Assembly: GCA_024223125.1 (NCBI GenBank)
Contig: JAAEOP010001225.1
Span: forward strand, 1 to 8,249
Source: Chloroflexota bacterium
GTDB lineage: Bacteria; Chloroflexota; Anaerolineae; Promineifilales; Promineifilaceae
Direction of reading: 5' to 3'
Length of the DNA: 8,249 nucleotides
Under the pieces are notes generated by a model, which ran no database searches, had not been told where the DNA came from, and worked only from the letters and a program-made list of their open reading frames with translations. Position numbers and translations under genes: made by a program. Position 1 is the stretch's first letter; each line of letters opens with the position of its first letter. Shown here piece by piece: positions 2,278-7,291 of the stretch.

Positions 2278-3429
2278 TTAAGGATTTTCAGACATTTGGG
2301 CCACAGGTCGCCACAAACCCATCACCACACCAAAAATGTCCTCCAGATTCATCGTAATCTGATGTTCTGTTTCCGTAAAGATAGCCTTACCATTTTGTAG
2401 AATGAATGTCCCCGTTTGCATTGTGAGCGGTTTTAGGTGAATGCGCTGTCGGGCCATTGGTCGGGCAGTGGATGGATGGGGCTTCAATAGAATTGTACCG
2501 TCAATTTCCGATTCAAACAGGACCATAATCGGTCGTTCCTGCTCTGCTGCTACTGTTTGTTCTGGTTGAGTATAAACTAATAACCAATCTCCTGGTTGCA
2601 CAAAAGGTAAAAATTCATCAGACAATCGTTTATCCACTTCATACCATTGATACTCTCTTTCCGTTTTCACATGGCCTAAAATGGGCAGCAAGTTACGATG
2701 GTTAATATTGCTTATAGGTGGCGGAACGGTCTCTTCATCACTGCCCCGTTCCTCTTCGGCCGCAGGGGGTTCAGATGTGGTGGGTTCGGGAGGGTGGTCT
2801 TCTTCGTTGTTGGGAACTGTTTCTGAATCTTGTTCAATTTGTTCATCTTGTACGGCCGTTTCCGGTACAGGCTGCATAAGTTGACGCAGGTTTTTTTGGG
2901 CTTCTTTAATATGATCCTCTATCGAATTCTTAAACGCTTGCATTCGCTGTTGTTGCTCATCATTATGAGCATAATTGCGAAGGCGGATTTTGGCGTGGTA
3001 ATTTTGGGCGTAATAATAATATTTCATGGCACCTTCATACCGGTAGGCAATTTCCAAAGCATAACCTCTGCCTAAAGAAGCCAGACAGAATAAAGATTGA
3101 TCCACTTCCCTGGCCCAAGCGTCCCAGGCTCTTTTAAAATGATTATCGGCCGCCAGAATTTCCCCCTCATAAAGATAAATGAGACCGGTGTGGAAATAAT
3201 TCAAACCTAATTGAAGTGCATCTGACAGGTTTATTCGCCTGGATTGTTCAATATATTGGATAGCCGTTGCGCTAAGACCGGAAATCTTAAAAGCAAATTG
3301 AAAAGATTCTAGCGTAAATACGTCTGGGCTGGGATCTGGAAAACGGATTTGTATCAGATCCATCAAGTGGTTGACCGCCACTCTGGTTTGCCTGTTGTTT
3401 TGGAAGGATCGCGGAGATTCCCCACTCAT
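2278..3429 (-). CDS. Two-domain protein: TPR-like helical half plus LexA/S24-like half
   Basis: 383 residues with no signal peptide or membrane segment, and not a family I can name. Residues about 41-185 are helical and read like degenerate TPR repeats (NYFHTGLIYLYEGE at 77-90, AADNHFKRAWDAW at 93-105, EIAYRYEGAMKYYYYAQ at 126-142). Residues about 186-245 form an acidic, Pro/Glu-rich disordered linker. Residues 247-376 resemble the S24/LexA fold: LPILGHV (248-254), VQPGDWLLV (277-285), a strand ending in LLK (K316) and IFGVVMGLWR (365-374). LexA relatives have a catalytic Ser about ten residues before the GD and a Lys in the K316 position. Here S270 lies near but not exactly at the Ser position, so activity is uncertain. 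Its ATG overlaps the SPFH gene stop (ATGA, 3429-3426), with an AGGGAG Shine-Dalgarno (3445-3440). The coupling suggests it works with the SPFH proteins. Confidence 0.75.
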   Translation of the reverse strand: MSGESPRSFQNNRQTRVAVNHLMDLIQIRFPDPSPDVFTLESFQFAFKISGLSATAIQYIEQSRRINLSDALQLGLNYFHTGLIYLYEGEILAADNHFKRAWDAWAREVDQSLFCLASLGRGYALEIAYRYEGAMKYYYYAQNYHAKIRLRNYAHNDEQQQRMQAFKNSIEDHIKEAQKNLRQLMQPVPETAVQDEQIEQDSETVPNNEEDHPPEPTTSEPPAAEEERGSDEETVPPPISNINHRNLLPILGHVKTEREYQWYEVDKRLSDEFLPFVQPGDWLLVYTQPEQTVAAEQERPIMVLFESEIDGTILLKPHPSTARPMARQRIHLKPLTMQTGTFILQNGKAIFTETEHQITMNLEDIFGVVMGLWRPVAQMSENP

Positions 3430-4703
3430 GTGTCGTCCACTCCCTGATTAGATTGATCAATTTGGATGGGCATTGCCAGCTCATTGCGGGTATTTTCTAG
3501 CAGGGGCAGTAACACTTGTGCCTGTTGCGTTTTCCTGGCCATCCGTTCCAAAGCTTCTACCAGACGCAAAGCGACAATATCACTGGTGCGGGTAATAGCG
3601 CCAGTACGTTTGGCTTGTTGAATACTTTCTATAATGGCTTTGGTGATAGCCACTTCTGCTTCTGATCTGGCTATTTCTAACTCTTCTACGGCCGTTGCCT
3701 CACCGTCAGCCAAGCGTAAAGAATTTTGTGATTCCCACTGAGAGCGCCAGTAACGAATATACAAATCTTCCACTTCCGAGGGTATATCCAACCTGTCAAT
3801 ATGCACAGAAAGCAATTCTATGCCCAATTTGTGCAAATCTGAACGGGCAGCGCGTAAGACTTCATTTTGTAAGGTGCGATACGGTTCTTCTCCCTGGCCG
3901 GCCGGATGTAGAATTTCATCCAGTTTGTATTTAGCTACGGCCGCACCCAGCTTAGATTTTGTCGTCAGAACAGGTTTGCTGTCCCAATTGCTGACTTTCC
4001 CTTCATCTAATACAGTTTGCGTATAAGCGGCCGTGCGCACGGCCGTTTCAGCAAAAGGAAAAGGTCTGTTTTTGGTAGCGGGCACATCTCCCCGGCGCAG
4101 ACGGTAGGTGATGGAAAATGAGGCGGTCAAATCTATATTATCCCGCGTGCGAAGGGGAACATCGGTTTCCTGACGTTCTTGTAAACGAGTGTCCAACACC
4201 ATATGCACAAATTCAAACGGCCGCAGCCGGTGCGTTCCTTGAGACAGTACGCGGGAGAAACGGCCGTTAATCTCTATCACCGCCACATTCCCTCCGTCTA
4301 CTTTTACTTTGCCCGGTCCGCCTACACGCAGCACTACGGAGGCAAACCGGTCATCTTCCAAAGTGGCATCATTGACAGATACAACGGAGGCATAACGGCC
4401 GTCGGGCGATTTCAACGCTGACAAAAAATCTTGCGCCGCTTGTTGATCTGGCAAATCATATAATACCTTCACTGCATACACGGCCGCCTGGTAAGCAAAC
4501 CACCACCCCACTACAATGGGAATGAGATGGCGACCCAGTTTAATCAGAGCAAGGATTAACGCTCTGAGATCAGTCCACGGGGGCAAAAACATCTCCAGAT
4601 TCGGCCGTTCCAAAAACCAGACAAATGGTAAATAGGCTAAAAATAACCCTACCAATATCCAGGTAAACCAGGTGTGCTTGTAACCAGGTGTTCGTGAATT
4701 CAT
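3426..4703 (-). CDS. Membrane-anchored SPFH/band-7 protein (second of pair)
   Basis: A 425-residue protein of the stomatin/prohibitin/HflK superfamily. Two hydrophobic segments lie at the N-terminus (about 12-31 and 46-80). They are followed by an SPFH domain (about 125-310) with the typical GTHRLRPFEFVHMVLDTR and NIDLTASFSITYRL patterns and the GIELLSVHIDRLDIP strand (294-308). A long helical region follows (about 311-405) containing the Ala/Glu-rich coiled coil normal for oligomerising SPFH proteins, then a polar tail. Such proteins form ring- or cage-like membrane scaffolds that organise lipid domains or regulate proteases and transporters. It is 33 nt downstream of another SPFH gene, so the two may form a hetero-oligomer as HflK and HflC do. 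No FtsH or NfeD partner is present. The start ATG 4703 has only a weak GAGAG element upstream. Confidence 0.85.
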   Translation of the reverse strand: MNSRTPGYKHTWFTWILVGLFLAYLPFVWFLERPNLEMFLPPWTDLRALILALIKLGRHLIPIVVGWWFAYQAAVYAVKVLYDLPDQQAAQDFLSALKSPDGRYASVVSVNDATLEDDRFASVVLRVGGPGKVKVDGGNVAVIEINGRFSRVLSQGTHRLRPFEFVHMVLDTRLQERQETDVPLRTRDNIDLTASFSITYRLRRGDVPATKNRPFPFAETAVRTAAYTQTVLDEGKVSNWDSKPVLTTKSKLGAAVAKYKLDEILHPAGQGEEPYRTLQNEVLRAARSDLHKLGIELLSVHIDRLDIPSEVEDLYIRYWRSQWESQNSLRLADGEATAVEELEIARSEAEVAITKAIIESIQQAKRTGAITRTSDIVALRLVEALERMARKTQQAQVLLPLLENTRNELAMPIQIDQSNQGVDDT

Positions 4704-4736
4704 AAGATACTTTCTCTCATTCTATAAGCGTCAAAT

Positions 4737-6221
4737 CTATGAAGACCCGGTAGAGACTGTCTGCTGGGTAGTTTCTACTTCCATATTAGAGGAAACCTGT
4801 TTGGTTTGAACAGGTACCTCAACCTCATCCTTGCTATCATCTGCTTTCCCGGCCATCAGTAACGGATCGTTGATCTGCGATTGCACATAAGCCGATGTGT
4901 TTGAGACCAGGTTGGTCATGATTTGCTGGGGAACTAAAGTCCGCAAAGAGTTATCAGCCACCGCTTCTTCCAGAGCATCAATCAGGCGCAGTGTAATCAC
5001 CTGATACATATCCGACTCATTTTCCTGCCGCATCGTTTGCAAATTTTGGATAATGGTTTCAATAATTTCAATCTGGGCGTGGGCACGAGCCTGCTTCATA
5101 CGGCGAATCACGTCTGCCTCGCCGATGGCTTCTTCTATTTTAATTTTGCGCTGCCATTCAGCCTGCCACGTTTTGATGTTTTGTTTCTGAACTTCTTCCG
5201 GCAGCATCAAGACGCCGATGGATATGGTGATTACTTCAATACCCCGATGTCCAAATTCACGCTTCATGGCTGTACTGATGCGCTGGCCAACTTCTTGTCG
5301 GGGCGAGACGGCCGTAAGCGGAACATGAATCAAATCATCCAACGTATATTGGGCCAATTCTTGGACTGCTAATGCGGCCGCGCGGGGCACAACCTGATCA
5401 AGCCAGCGGTAAGTTTCACCTTTGTGGTTAACACTGTCATCATAACTCAGGTGAAAAATCGCCTCCCTTTCAAAAGGAAAAAGCAGTTCAGTCTGGGAAT
5501 GATCTGCTTCAGACTGTTTCACCCGAAAAATCACCGTAACCCCGGCTTCAACCCGAATGGCATCCCTTGTATTCACCTTTACCAACGCGCTCCGCAAATG
5601 AGTCCGCAAATCAATCACCTGCCGAATGCCTTCTTTTCTATAAAGGATGACAAATCCTGGGCCGGCCGGCCGAATATAGCTGTTGTCCTTAACAATAGAT
5701 AACACCTGAAAGCTGCGAATAAGCCCGGCGCGTAAAAACTCTAAACTGTAGGGGGTTTCTCTGACTGGTTCTGTTGTTTGCGCGGCCGTTCGCCGCTTCC
5801 TTTTCGTTTTTCGGGGACGAGGTTCAGCCATAAACTGGCCGAATGCTGCCGTATCTGCTCGCAAAATCAGCCGGAGCGCTTCCCACCAGCCTTCATTCCC
5901 AGGCAGGGGGGTAATGAATTGGGCAAAGTAAATGACCCCAAACACAAAAGTTACTATGGCCACCACCACCCAGATAACGGACAACAAGTAACCATAGGGC
6001 ACATTCAGGCTATCCTGGAGAAAGTAAGCCAGAAATGCCAGAATAAATAATGCCAGAATAAAGCCCAACAGTCCTAAGTTTGGCCTTTGTCGTTTTTCTT
6101 GTTTTCGTCGTGTCAAAGCGGTTAACCTGGATATTGTCAAACCAGATAGGTTTGGTTCGCTGAGTAAAATTGGTCTGGCTGCAACTATACCATACGGCCG
6201 TTTACGACGGCAACCAAACAT
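4737..6221 (-). CDS. Membrane-anchored SPFH/band-7 protein (first of pair)
   Basis: A 494-residue paralogue of the next gene and the first gene of the operon. A basic N-terminal region (1-48) precedes two membrane segments (about 49-68 and 77-102) and a strongly basic stretch RPRKTKRKRR (135-144). The SPFH domain spans about 180-345, with GPGFVILYRKEGIRQVIDLR, the DAIRVEAGVTVIFRV strand pair and GIEVITISIGVLMLPEEV. A charged coiled coil (about 346-435) and a Ser/Thr/Glu-rich tail end the protein. ATG 6221 has no Shine-Dalgarno. The first 40 residues contain no hydrophobic signal, so a downstream non-ATG start is possible, but the membrane segments require a start before about residue 48. A weak minus-strand promoter (TTTACA at 6272-6267, TATGCC at 6248-6243, 18-nt spacer) would give a very short leader. 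Confidence 0.83.
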   Translation of the reverse strand: MFGCRRKRPYGIVAARPILLSEPNLSGLTISRLTALTRRKQEKRQRPNLGLLGFILALFILAFLAYFLQDSLNVPYGYLLSVIWVVVAIVTFVFGVIYFAQFITPLPGNEGWWEALRLILRADTAAFGQFMAEPRPRKTKRKRRTAAQTTEPVRETPYSLEFLRAGLIRSFQVLSIVKDNSYIRPAGPGFVILYRKEGIRQVIDLRTHLRSALVKVNTRDAIRVEAGVTVIFRVKQSEADHSQTELLFPFEREAIFHLSYDDSVNHKGETYRWLDQVVPRAAALAVQELAQYTLDDLIHVPLTAVSPRQEVGQRISTAMKREFGHRGIEVITISIGVLMLPEEVQKQNIKTWQAEWQRKIKIEEAIGEADVIRRMKQARAHAQIEIIETIIQNLQTMRQENESDMYQVITLRLIDALEEAVADNSLRTLVPQQIMTNLVSNTSAYVQSQINDPLLMAGKADDSKDEVEVPVQTKQVSSNMEVETTQQTVSTGSS

Positions 6222-6276: not shown

Positions 6277-6350
6277 GGGCGGTTAGCTCAGTTGGTTAGA
6301 GTGCTACGTTGACATCGTAGAGGTCACAAGTTCGAGTCTTGTACCGCCCA
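6277..6350 (+). tRNA. tRNA-Val (anticodon GAC)
   Basis: A complete cloverleaf can be folded by eye: acceptor stem GGGCGGT/ACCGCCC (7 perfect pairs), D-arm GCTC/GAGT, anticodon stem CTACG/CGTAG with loop TTGACAT giving anticodon GAC at 6311-6313, variable loop AGGTC, and T-arm ACAAG/CTTGT with loop TTCGAGT. The discriminator base is A, as expected for tRNA-Val. The 3' CCA is not encoded (the next bases are TAA), so it must be added by a nucleotidyltransferase. It reads GUC and GUU codons. Confidence 0.97.
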
Positions 6351-6430: not shown

Positions 6431-6916
6431 TCACTTATAACTGGCTACCACTTCCATATTCCCGGCTTCATCAAAAGCCACCACGTCATACGGTTGTGTG
6501 GTCGCCCCATTTACCTCCATACCAGGTGAGCCGACCGGCATTCCGGCTACAGCCAAACCAGCAATGTCTGGCCGCTCGTTTAACATTTGTTCAATTTCTG
6601 TTACAGGCACATGCCCTTCAAGTATATAGCCGTCCACGACGGCCGTATGGCAAGATTGTAATGATGCGGGAATGTGGTACTTGTTTTTTACGGCCGTCAG
6701 GTCAGACACATCATTGACCTGCACCGCGTATCCATTCTCCTGCAAATACGCAATCCAATCGCCACAACAACCTCAGGTAGGCGCCCGAAACACTTCAATC
6801 ACCGGCCCGCTATCGGGCGCTGCGGCTGGCGCTGTCTTTTGTCTGGTTGGGGCCGTATTGCAAGCCGCCAACAACAGCAGGATAAGCAAACTCAGAAAAG
6901 ATAGTCGTTTAATCAT
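6431..6916 (-). CDS. DUF411 lipoprotein with in-frame UGA, probable selenoprotein
   Basis: 161 residues if UGA at 6775-6773 (codon 48) is read through. The start ATG 6916 has an AAGGAG Shine-Dalgarno (6933-6928). The N-terminus is a lipoprotein signal with lipobox LAAC (Cys19) and a Pro/Ala-rich spacer, so the protein should be anchored outside the cytoplasm. From residue 39 it matches DUF411: RAPT, then the UGA codon, then GCCGDW (C50, C51), where the family has P-T-C-G-C-C; then SCHTAVVDGYILEGHVP (C89, H90) and GLAVAGMPVGSPGMEV. UGA thus replaces precisely the first Cys of C-x-C-C, and no other stop interrupts the frame until UGA 6433-6431. DUF411 proteins are often found near copper or metal resistance genes; the Cys/His set suggests metal binding or thiol redox. 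Alternatives are a recent nonsense mutation or a base error. A conventional gene finder would report only a 104-residue fragment from TTG 6745. Confidence 0.85.
6723..6754 (-). promoter_or_regulatory. Putative bacterial SECIS stem-loop
   Basis: Downstream of the in-frame UGA the mRNA can form GCGUAU (6751-6746) paired with AUACGC (6731-6726), six perfect pairs, extended outward by U-G, U-G and A-U (6752-6754 with 6725-6723). The loop is 14 nt (UUGCAGGAGAAUGG), or about 10 nt starting with G if the two U-G pairs close it. The loop starts 27-29 nt after the UGA, within the 16-37 nt range I recall for bacterial SECIS elements, which also like a G at the loop start. The stem lies inside codons for IAYLQENGYAV, so protein conservation alone could produce it. 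Confidence 0.5.
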
Positions 6917-7291
6917 GGTTGTTAACACTCCTTATCATTTGGATTCTCTTACATAAAAGAGTACATTCATGTTACTGAACTCAAGCGGCCTTTTGATAGT
7001 AACAATGATCATATGAATGAGGGATGGATGGCAGGGAGCGTGCGGCTGTCAGCCAATAAAAAATAGCAACGATACAGGTGCGATGCACTTTTCCCAGAGT
7101 CATATGCCCTGACGATGCCTTTTGAAAGTGCGTCGCACCTCTGGTCGCTGTATAGTTGCAAAAAATATACCAACGGTCGTAACCAAATCTCCACAGAATC
7201 ATCGTGACATCCGTAACGGCCGTAACATATCAGAAATCACTATCTCCTGACTCCTCCATTTTATACGATCTGCTTAATGAGGTGCAAAACC
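6917..7291. other. Intergenic region with several inverted repeats
   Basis: No convincing gene on either strand. It separates the divergent DUF411 and CBS-domain genes. Read from left: the AAGGAG Shine-Dalgarno of the DUF411 gene (6928-6933); a small hairpin CTCTT/AAGAG (6946-6961) in its probable leader; a nested hairpin GTTACT...TCAA...TTGA.AGTAAC (6971-7003) with outer arms CATTCAT/ATGAATG (6964-6970, 7013-7019); an 11-nt palindrome GGCTG-T-CAGCC (7044-7054); the long 16-nt inverted repeat listed separately; one ACGGCCGT octamer (7216-7223); and the GAGGTG Shine-Dalgarno of the CBS gene (7279-7284). Promoters for both flanking genes must lie here but no clear -35/-10 pair was found. Confidence 0.6.
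7076..7140. repeat. 16-bp imperfect inverted repeat, each arm itself palindromic
   Basis: AGGTGCGATGCACTTT (7076-7091) and AAAGTGCGTCGCACCT (7125-7140) are inverted copies with one mismatch, 33 nt apart. Each arm holds its own small palindrome (GTGC-GAT-GCAC and GTGCG-T-CGCAC). Outside the arms, GCAACGATAC on the left and GTATAGTTGC on the right continue the symmetry after a 9-nt insertion on the right. It could be an operator pair, an RNA hairpin or a remnant of a small mobile repeat. Confidence 0.7.

Follow-up and report, generated by a model that had tools for sequence, protein, structure and literature searches.

Can a UGA codon that falls exactly on the first cysteine of a copper-ligand motif be read as selenocysteine (Sec)? 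This question is raised by a DUF411 lipoprotein gene on contig JAAEOP010001225.1 of a Chloroflexota bacterium (assembly GCA_024223125.1). We refer to the whole stretch of 8,249 nucleotides that was analysed as the window. A preliminary description, made from the sequence alone, had put this gene forward as a candidate new selenoprotein family. Our analysis strongly supports the Sec reading. We conclude that the gene probably encodes a predicted membrane-anchored selenoprotein CopG, with Sec, specified by the UGA of codon 48, where CopG has the first residue of its C-x-C-C motif. The evidence consists of a reading frame that is conserved on either side of the UGA, the recurrence of this UGA in 23 more genes and the existence of Cys homologues, together with the Sec machinery of relatives' genomes, similarity to CopG in sequence and predicted fold, and copper-related neighbours in some relatives. 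The features on which the argument draws are the following (SECIS, selenocysteine insertion sequence).

6431..6916, minus strand: DUF411/CopG-like lipoprotein gene of 161 codons in which UGA occupies codon 48 and also forms the stop (translation, Pfam PF04214, CopG 6WIS/6WJE)
6928..6932, minus strand: Shine-Dalgarno sequence AGGAG, with the ATG 11 nt further on (upstream sequence)
6860..6916, minus strand: predicted lipoprotein signal peptide with lipobox LAAC, last residue Cys19 (lipobox pattern)
6773..6775, minus strand: in-frame UGA where C-x-C-C has its first Cys; predicted selenocysteine codon (shared by 23 other genes)
6764..6775, minus strand: U-G-C-C motif, codons 48-51, aligning with the CxCC copper ligands of CopG
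6720..6757, minus strand: candidate SECIS hairpin 3′ of the UGA, with a 12-bp core at 6754-6723 (folding)
6647..6652, minus strand: Cys89-His90, invariant in 66 rows (alignment)
6518..6541, minus strand: Met126-x6-Met133, the second copper-ligand motif of CopG (both Met invariant; motif as given in the available text of PMC8456105)

A conserved frame across the UGA

When TGA is translated as a residue, the minus strand from 6916 to 6431 forms a single frame of 161 codons from ATG, with no further stops. UGA occurs twice in this gene, internally as codon 48 (6775-6773) and at the end as the stop codon (6433-6431); the motif around the former reads A-P-T-[UGA]-G-C-C-G-D-W where non-UGA homologues have Cys. 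The remaining conserved residues (C50, C51, C89, H90, M126 and M133) are all present in the window protein and invariant in a 66-row alignment that omits rows with Trp at codon 48. PF04214 (DUF411) matches residues 86-133 with an E value of 2.6e-26 and 91.5 bits, for a gathering cut-off of 27; an NCBIfam search was without a match. Translation and alignment thus bear out what the preliminary description had claimed of this gene, namely a frame interrupted only by the codon-48 UGA, a well-placed Shine-Dalgarno and lipoprotein signal, the position of the UGA at the first Cys of the motif and the integrity of the other conserved residues. Its further claim that UGA is a true stop elsewhere was verified at the ends of the window genes at 1334 and 3426. 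Since these two genes end in UGA, as does the DUF411 gene itself, UGA is a normal stop here, and a change of genetic code is ruled out.

The same codon was then read in relatives. A genome-wide scan of GTDB species genomes gave 68 DUF411 loci, in which the equivalent of codon 48 is TGC or TGT in 65 and TGA in 3. Among the former, L007, L051 and L052 (TGC) were read with a looser pattern, applied only to these loci and L029, that also matched unrelated frames in many loci. All three TGA loci belong to Chloroflexota metagenome-assembled genomes, and their proteins are 82 % (L001, Ardenticatenaceae), 80 % (L002) and 51 % (L004) identical to that of the window. The two closest homologues, at about 80 % protein identity, therefore have UGA and not Cys. 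In the Chloroflexota class to which the genome of L001 belongs, DUF411 was found in 45 of 396 genomes (E <= 1e-10). An in-frame TGA is present in 22 of the 45, each time at the first Cys of the motif, which together with L002 makes 23 genes besides that of the window. These counts omit a second, partial TGA-bearing match in G135. Of the 23 remaining DUF411-bearing genomes, 20 were examined at the site and all have Cys, a count that omits weak hits without TGA in G191, G371 and G237; where the pattern missed the site, in seven Cys regions, it was read directly in six and via L153 in the seventh (G050, L192). A phylum-wide sample of 400 genomes contained DUF411 in seven, three of them with TGA, and all three are in the class set too. 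Related genomes thus do carry UGA-bearing DUF411 genes, as the preliminary description had suggested checking, and UGA occurs at codon 48 far above chance.

Public protein records may show traces of the same codon. Among the best 120 of 4,999 database matches, 109 have Cys, six have W-G-C-C (P0004, P0005, P0026, P0050, P0094 and P0097) and five start after the site (P0038, P0079, P0080 and P0110, which begin just past it, and the window's own). Both the Trp-bearing proteins and these four short-start ones are probably miscalled versions of this selenoprotein; in the former, TGA would have been translated as Trp. One further record, P0002, has 279 residues and two DUF411-like units in tandem, with C-x-C-C in each.

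Could the gene instead have decayed into a pseudogene, be split in two, or owe its UGA to an error of sequencing? The point in favour comes from one relative, G034, whose DUF411 copy (L118; contig 1, 935993-936385) is damaged: in addition to the TGA it contains a TAA and an unknown residue, and the sequence upstream lacks a recognisable signal. Separate assemblies, however, agree on the UGA codon (the window and 23 further genes), the lipobox pattern is retained upstream of the UGA in 22 of 24 UGA genes, and the open reading frame downstream of the UGA, taken alone, is a product of 104 aa without signal or motif. The ratio of nonsynonymous to synonymous substitution rates (dN/dS) in the three close pairs formed by the window, L001 and L002 is 0.16-0.22 upstream of the UGA and 0.10-0.17 downstream, values from which purifying selection is seen to act on both sides. 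The frame has thus been kept in relatives rather than lost beyond the UGA. Low dN/dS on both sides does not fit a pseudogene or a split gene, the pseudogene reading was ruled out on this ground, and this whole class of explanation is left with next to no probability.

Within the family, the two states appear to have alternated. On the best tree of 61 proteins (23 Sec and 38 Cys, with L029 and L102 omitted, the latter read separately) there are six changes of state, and the well-supported branches force at least two; Sec and Cys would thus have been exchanged more than once in DUF411, with no direction assigned.

Relationship to CopG and to known selenoproteins

Sequence and predicted fold both point to CopG (6WIS, 6WJE). 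The best structural match is PDB 6WJE, with 44 % identity and a predicted fold agreeing to 1.3 Å over 124 residues. CopG/CutG (DUF411, PF04214) is a copper-resistance Cu-thiol oxidoreductase with a tetranuclear copper cluster. According to the available text of PMC7558416 and PMC8456105 its CxCC residues are copper ligands, and the latter text also gives M-x6-M as Cu ligands. The window protein resembles CopG/CutG in the sequence of its mature domain, in predicted fold, in CxCC spacing, in M-x6-M and in the company of copper genes in some relatives. It differs in that the product is a predicted lipoprotein, in that no copper genes were found next to the window gene and in that UGA stands for the first Cys of CxCC. 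The fold, the second and third Cys and both Met of CopG are thus present, and because the first Cys is encoded by UGA the strict Cys-x-Cys-Cys motif is not.

Gene neighbourhoods were compared in 23 UGA regions, with the window included and the region of G034 omitted. The UGA gene adjoins csoR- and copZ-like genes in five of them, and copA as well in four. Among 13 Cys regions with a readable site, a copA-like gene lies on the same strand within 4 kb in four, and a copZ-like gene too in L180; copper neighbours are therefore not special to UGA genes. Taken together, sequence, predicted fold and the copper gene clusters of some relatives make more precise, as CopG, the extracytoplasmic redox or metal-handling role that had been inferred from the sequence.

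An alternative is that the UGA does encode Sec, in a protein with a general thiol/selenol redox function outside the cytoplasm or one that handles another metal, copper not being its substrate. Thioredoxin- and glutaredoxin-like folds come next after CopG in the fold searches. The neighbours of the UGA gene in G003 are ccmB, a DsbD_TM gene and a ccmC-like gene (129.7 bits, where NCBIfam sets its cut-off at 186), and 18 of the 23 UGA regions have no csoR or copZ beside the gene. We regard this alternative as unlikely.

For the Sec form of CopG, the following mechanism can be proposed. SelB, tRNA-Sec and the downstream hairpin would let the ribosome insert Sec at codon 48, and the final UGA would terminate translation. 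The lipoprotein would be exported and then anchored outside the membrane, where Sec48-x-Cys50-Cys51 together with Met126 and Met133 may bind a small copper cluster and shuttle between Cu(I) and Cu(II). Such a protein would detoxify copper or pass it on, alongside export by CopZ/CopA. Relative to Cys, Sec would offer tighter Cu(I) binding, be easier to keep reduced or better resist over-oxidation. We lean, by a little, towards Sec itself being a ligand of the CopG copper cluster, that is, a natural, genetically encoded copper-selenolate centre, with selenium supply tied to copper handling in a class of Chloroflexota and repeated exchange of Sec and Cys. To our knowledge, a copper cluster with Sec among its native ligands would represent a type of metal site new to biology.

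The preliminary description did not place DUF411 among listed selenoprotein families. Table 1 of the 2026 catalogue, taken whole, lists 119 prokaryotic selenoprotein families and contains no DUF411, PF04214 or CopG (PMC13188914), which confirms this absence as far as that table extends. The words CopG and Chloroflex are likewise absent from the available portions of the 2022 list and of the deep-Sep paper, whose passages do not contain DUF411. A literature search found no report of DUF411 or CopG as a selenoprotein; bioRxiv and most subscription papers were outside its reach. DUF411 being absent from the catalogue and the literature searched, the gene likely represents a new selenoprotein family, a selenium variant of CopG, and the proposal of a candidate family can be reworded as likely a new selenoprotein family, Sec-CopG. 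Catalogued selenoproteins of thioredoxin-like fold, such as thioredoxin-like selenoprotein Sec.2 (UxC, PF13192), likewise have UGA at a redox or metal Cys and have Cys homologues. In contrast to Sec.2, the window gene has U-x-C-C in DUF411, a separate family. Two copper-related names do appear in the part of the catalogue available, an SO_0444 family Cu/Zn efflux transporter and CopZ-family (2Fe-2S)-binding selenoproteins (PMC13188914); they are a transporter and an iron-sulphur protein, not DUF411, and are set apart by their names only. The same source, in the text available, describes Sec bound to Mo, W and Ni (PMC13188914).

If the reading is correct, one more family is added to the 119 catalogued, with a Cys homologue of solved structure that binds copper through the very motif where Sec appears. 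It would also account for a set of DUF411 entries that are truncated or miscalled in public databases, and would provide natural Cys/Sec pairs for directly testing the contribution of selenium.

Decoding of the UGA

Sec insertion depends in this proposal on machinery that was looked for in relatives' genomes (the 22 UGA genomes, the genome of L002 and Cys genomes). In the UGA genomes, selA was found in 20 of 22 (the matches lack G318 and G396), selB over cut-off in 19, selD over cut-off in 18 and tRNA-Sec over cut-off in 17; 17 of the 18 selD genes have an in-frame TGA of their own. All four are present in 14 of the 22 and at least one in every genome, and absent Sec genes may reflect incomplete metagenome-assembled genomes. 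ARAGORN called tRNA-SeC with anticodon tca in 4 of 4 loci tried, 3 of them from UGA genomes. In G354 the UGA gene, selB, selD and tRNA-Sec share one contig of 3.97 Mb. The genome of L002 (G002) has tRNA-Sec, selA and selD over cut-off and a partial selB only. The machinery for which a search had been recommended is thus present in relatives' genomes. In G034, which carries the damaged DUF411 copy, SelD is without in-frame TGA and the tRNA-Sec search was negative.

The 60-nt piece that follows the window UGA folds into a hairpin with the 12-bp core, at -15.2 kcal/mol and z -1.73, where four other folded pieces of the window gave z -0.57, 0.30, 1.41 and -0.23. The pairs of this hairpin can form in 65 % of cells across 22 UGA genes and in 53 % across 10 Cys genes, and in 30-46 % when slid along the UGA genes; this pairing across genes is owed in part to conservation of the protein sequence. 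In comparisons of the window, L001 and L002, codons +4 to +45 past the UGA show 11/106 synonymous changes, against 38/106 upstream and 32/94 further on, a low stretch wider than a SECIS requires. No dip in synonymous changes within the SECIS zone was seen across 20 UGA genes (L113 and L115 omitted from part of this test), and an Rfam search of the window at E up to 5 listed no SECIS-type match.

Several findings weigh against a Sec form of CopG, both on the side of copper and on that of decoding. In Rhodobacter capsulatus CutG, the CxCC and Met motifs are dispensable for CutO activity, according to the available text of PMC8456105. Neither a csoR-like nor a copZ-like gene turned up in 17 of the 23 UGA regions, window included, where several contigs end nearby. 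The Sec trait is common in the class, with selA over cut-off in 315 of 396 genomes, and tRNA-Sec is equally frequent in Cys genomes (20/23) and UGA genomes (17/22). Co-occurrence of the machinery with the UGA gene is therefore real but weak, being necessary and not discriminating. The published bacterial SECIS model, which in the available text uses loop, stem, spacing and energy (PMC13188914), was applied in our own implementation with L118 omitted because of an N; 20 of 22 UGA genes match it, yet so do 68 of 73 Cys genes. Alifold found no consensus structure (L115, which has an insertion, was omitted from parts of the alifold and hairpin-pair tests), and synonymous-codon shuffles revealed no excess stability, with z -0.23 for 22 UGA genes vs -0.33 for 72 Cys genes. 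In the same genomes the known selenoprotein SelD gave no consensus either and a z of -0.8 that is equal in a control stretch, which indicates that the SECIS tests lack power. As the tests do not separate UGA from Cys genes, we dropped the SECIS as proof of Sec, and the element in the window is to be taken as a putative one.

The outcome of these SECIS tests, none of which demonstrated a SECIS, is what favours another explanation, in which a near-cognate tRNA for Trp or another amino acid reads through the UGA and yields a full-length protein without selenium. Against it, all 65 non-UGA scan loci have Cys at this position, which lies within the copper-ligand motif of CopG; UGA serves as a stop elsewhere and is absent inside the SelA and SelB matches listed; and relatives' genomes contain Sec machinery. 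Readthrough is thus very improbable, and Sec remains our preferred reading of codon 48.

Surroundings of the gene in the window

Besides the DUF411 gene, the window encodes two SPFH/band-7 proteins, a PfkB kinase, a CBS protein and a CitMHS transporter, and a tRNA-Val(GAC) lies at 6277-6350. The two SPFH/band-7 genes form a tandem pair (3426-6221) located after the Sec-DUF411 gene, an arrangement that the window shares with its two closest relatives, L001 and L002. An imperfect inverted repeat, AGGTGCGATGCACTTTTC ... GAAAGTGCGTCGCACCT, was seen by eye at 7076-7136, between the DUF411 and CBS genes; a repeat search of the window at its seed length gave none in this region.

The window is also rich in short repeated words. 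CGGCCGT occurs 40 times vs 0.99 expected, and the palindrome ACGGCCGT is present in 15 copies vs 0.11 expected. Of 45 sources counted, L177, L170, L176, L178, L002, L158, L156, L001, L160, L174, L157 and L162 contain ACGGCCGT at 1-3 per kb and the remainder at <= 0.17 per kb, so that it looks like an iterated palindrome limited to some lineages.
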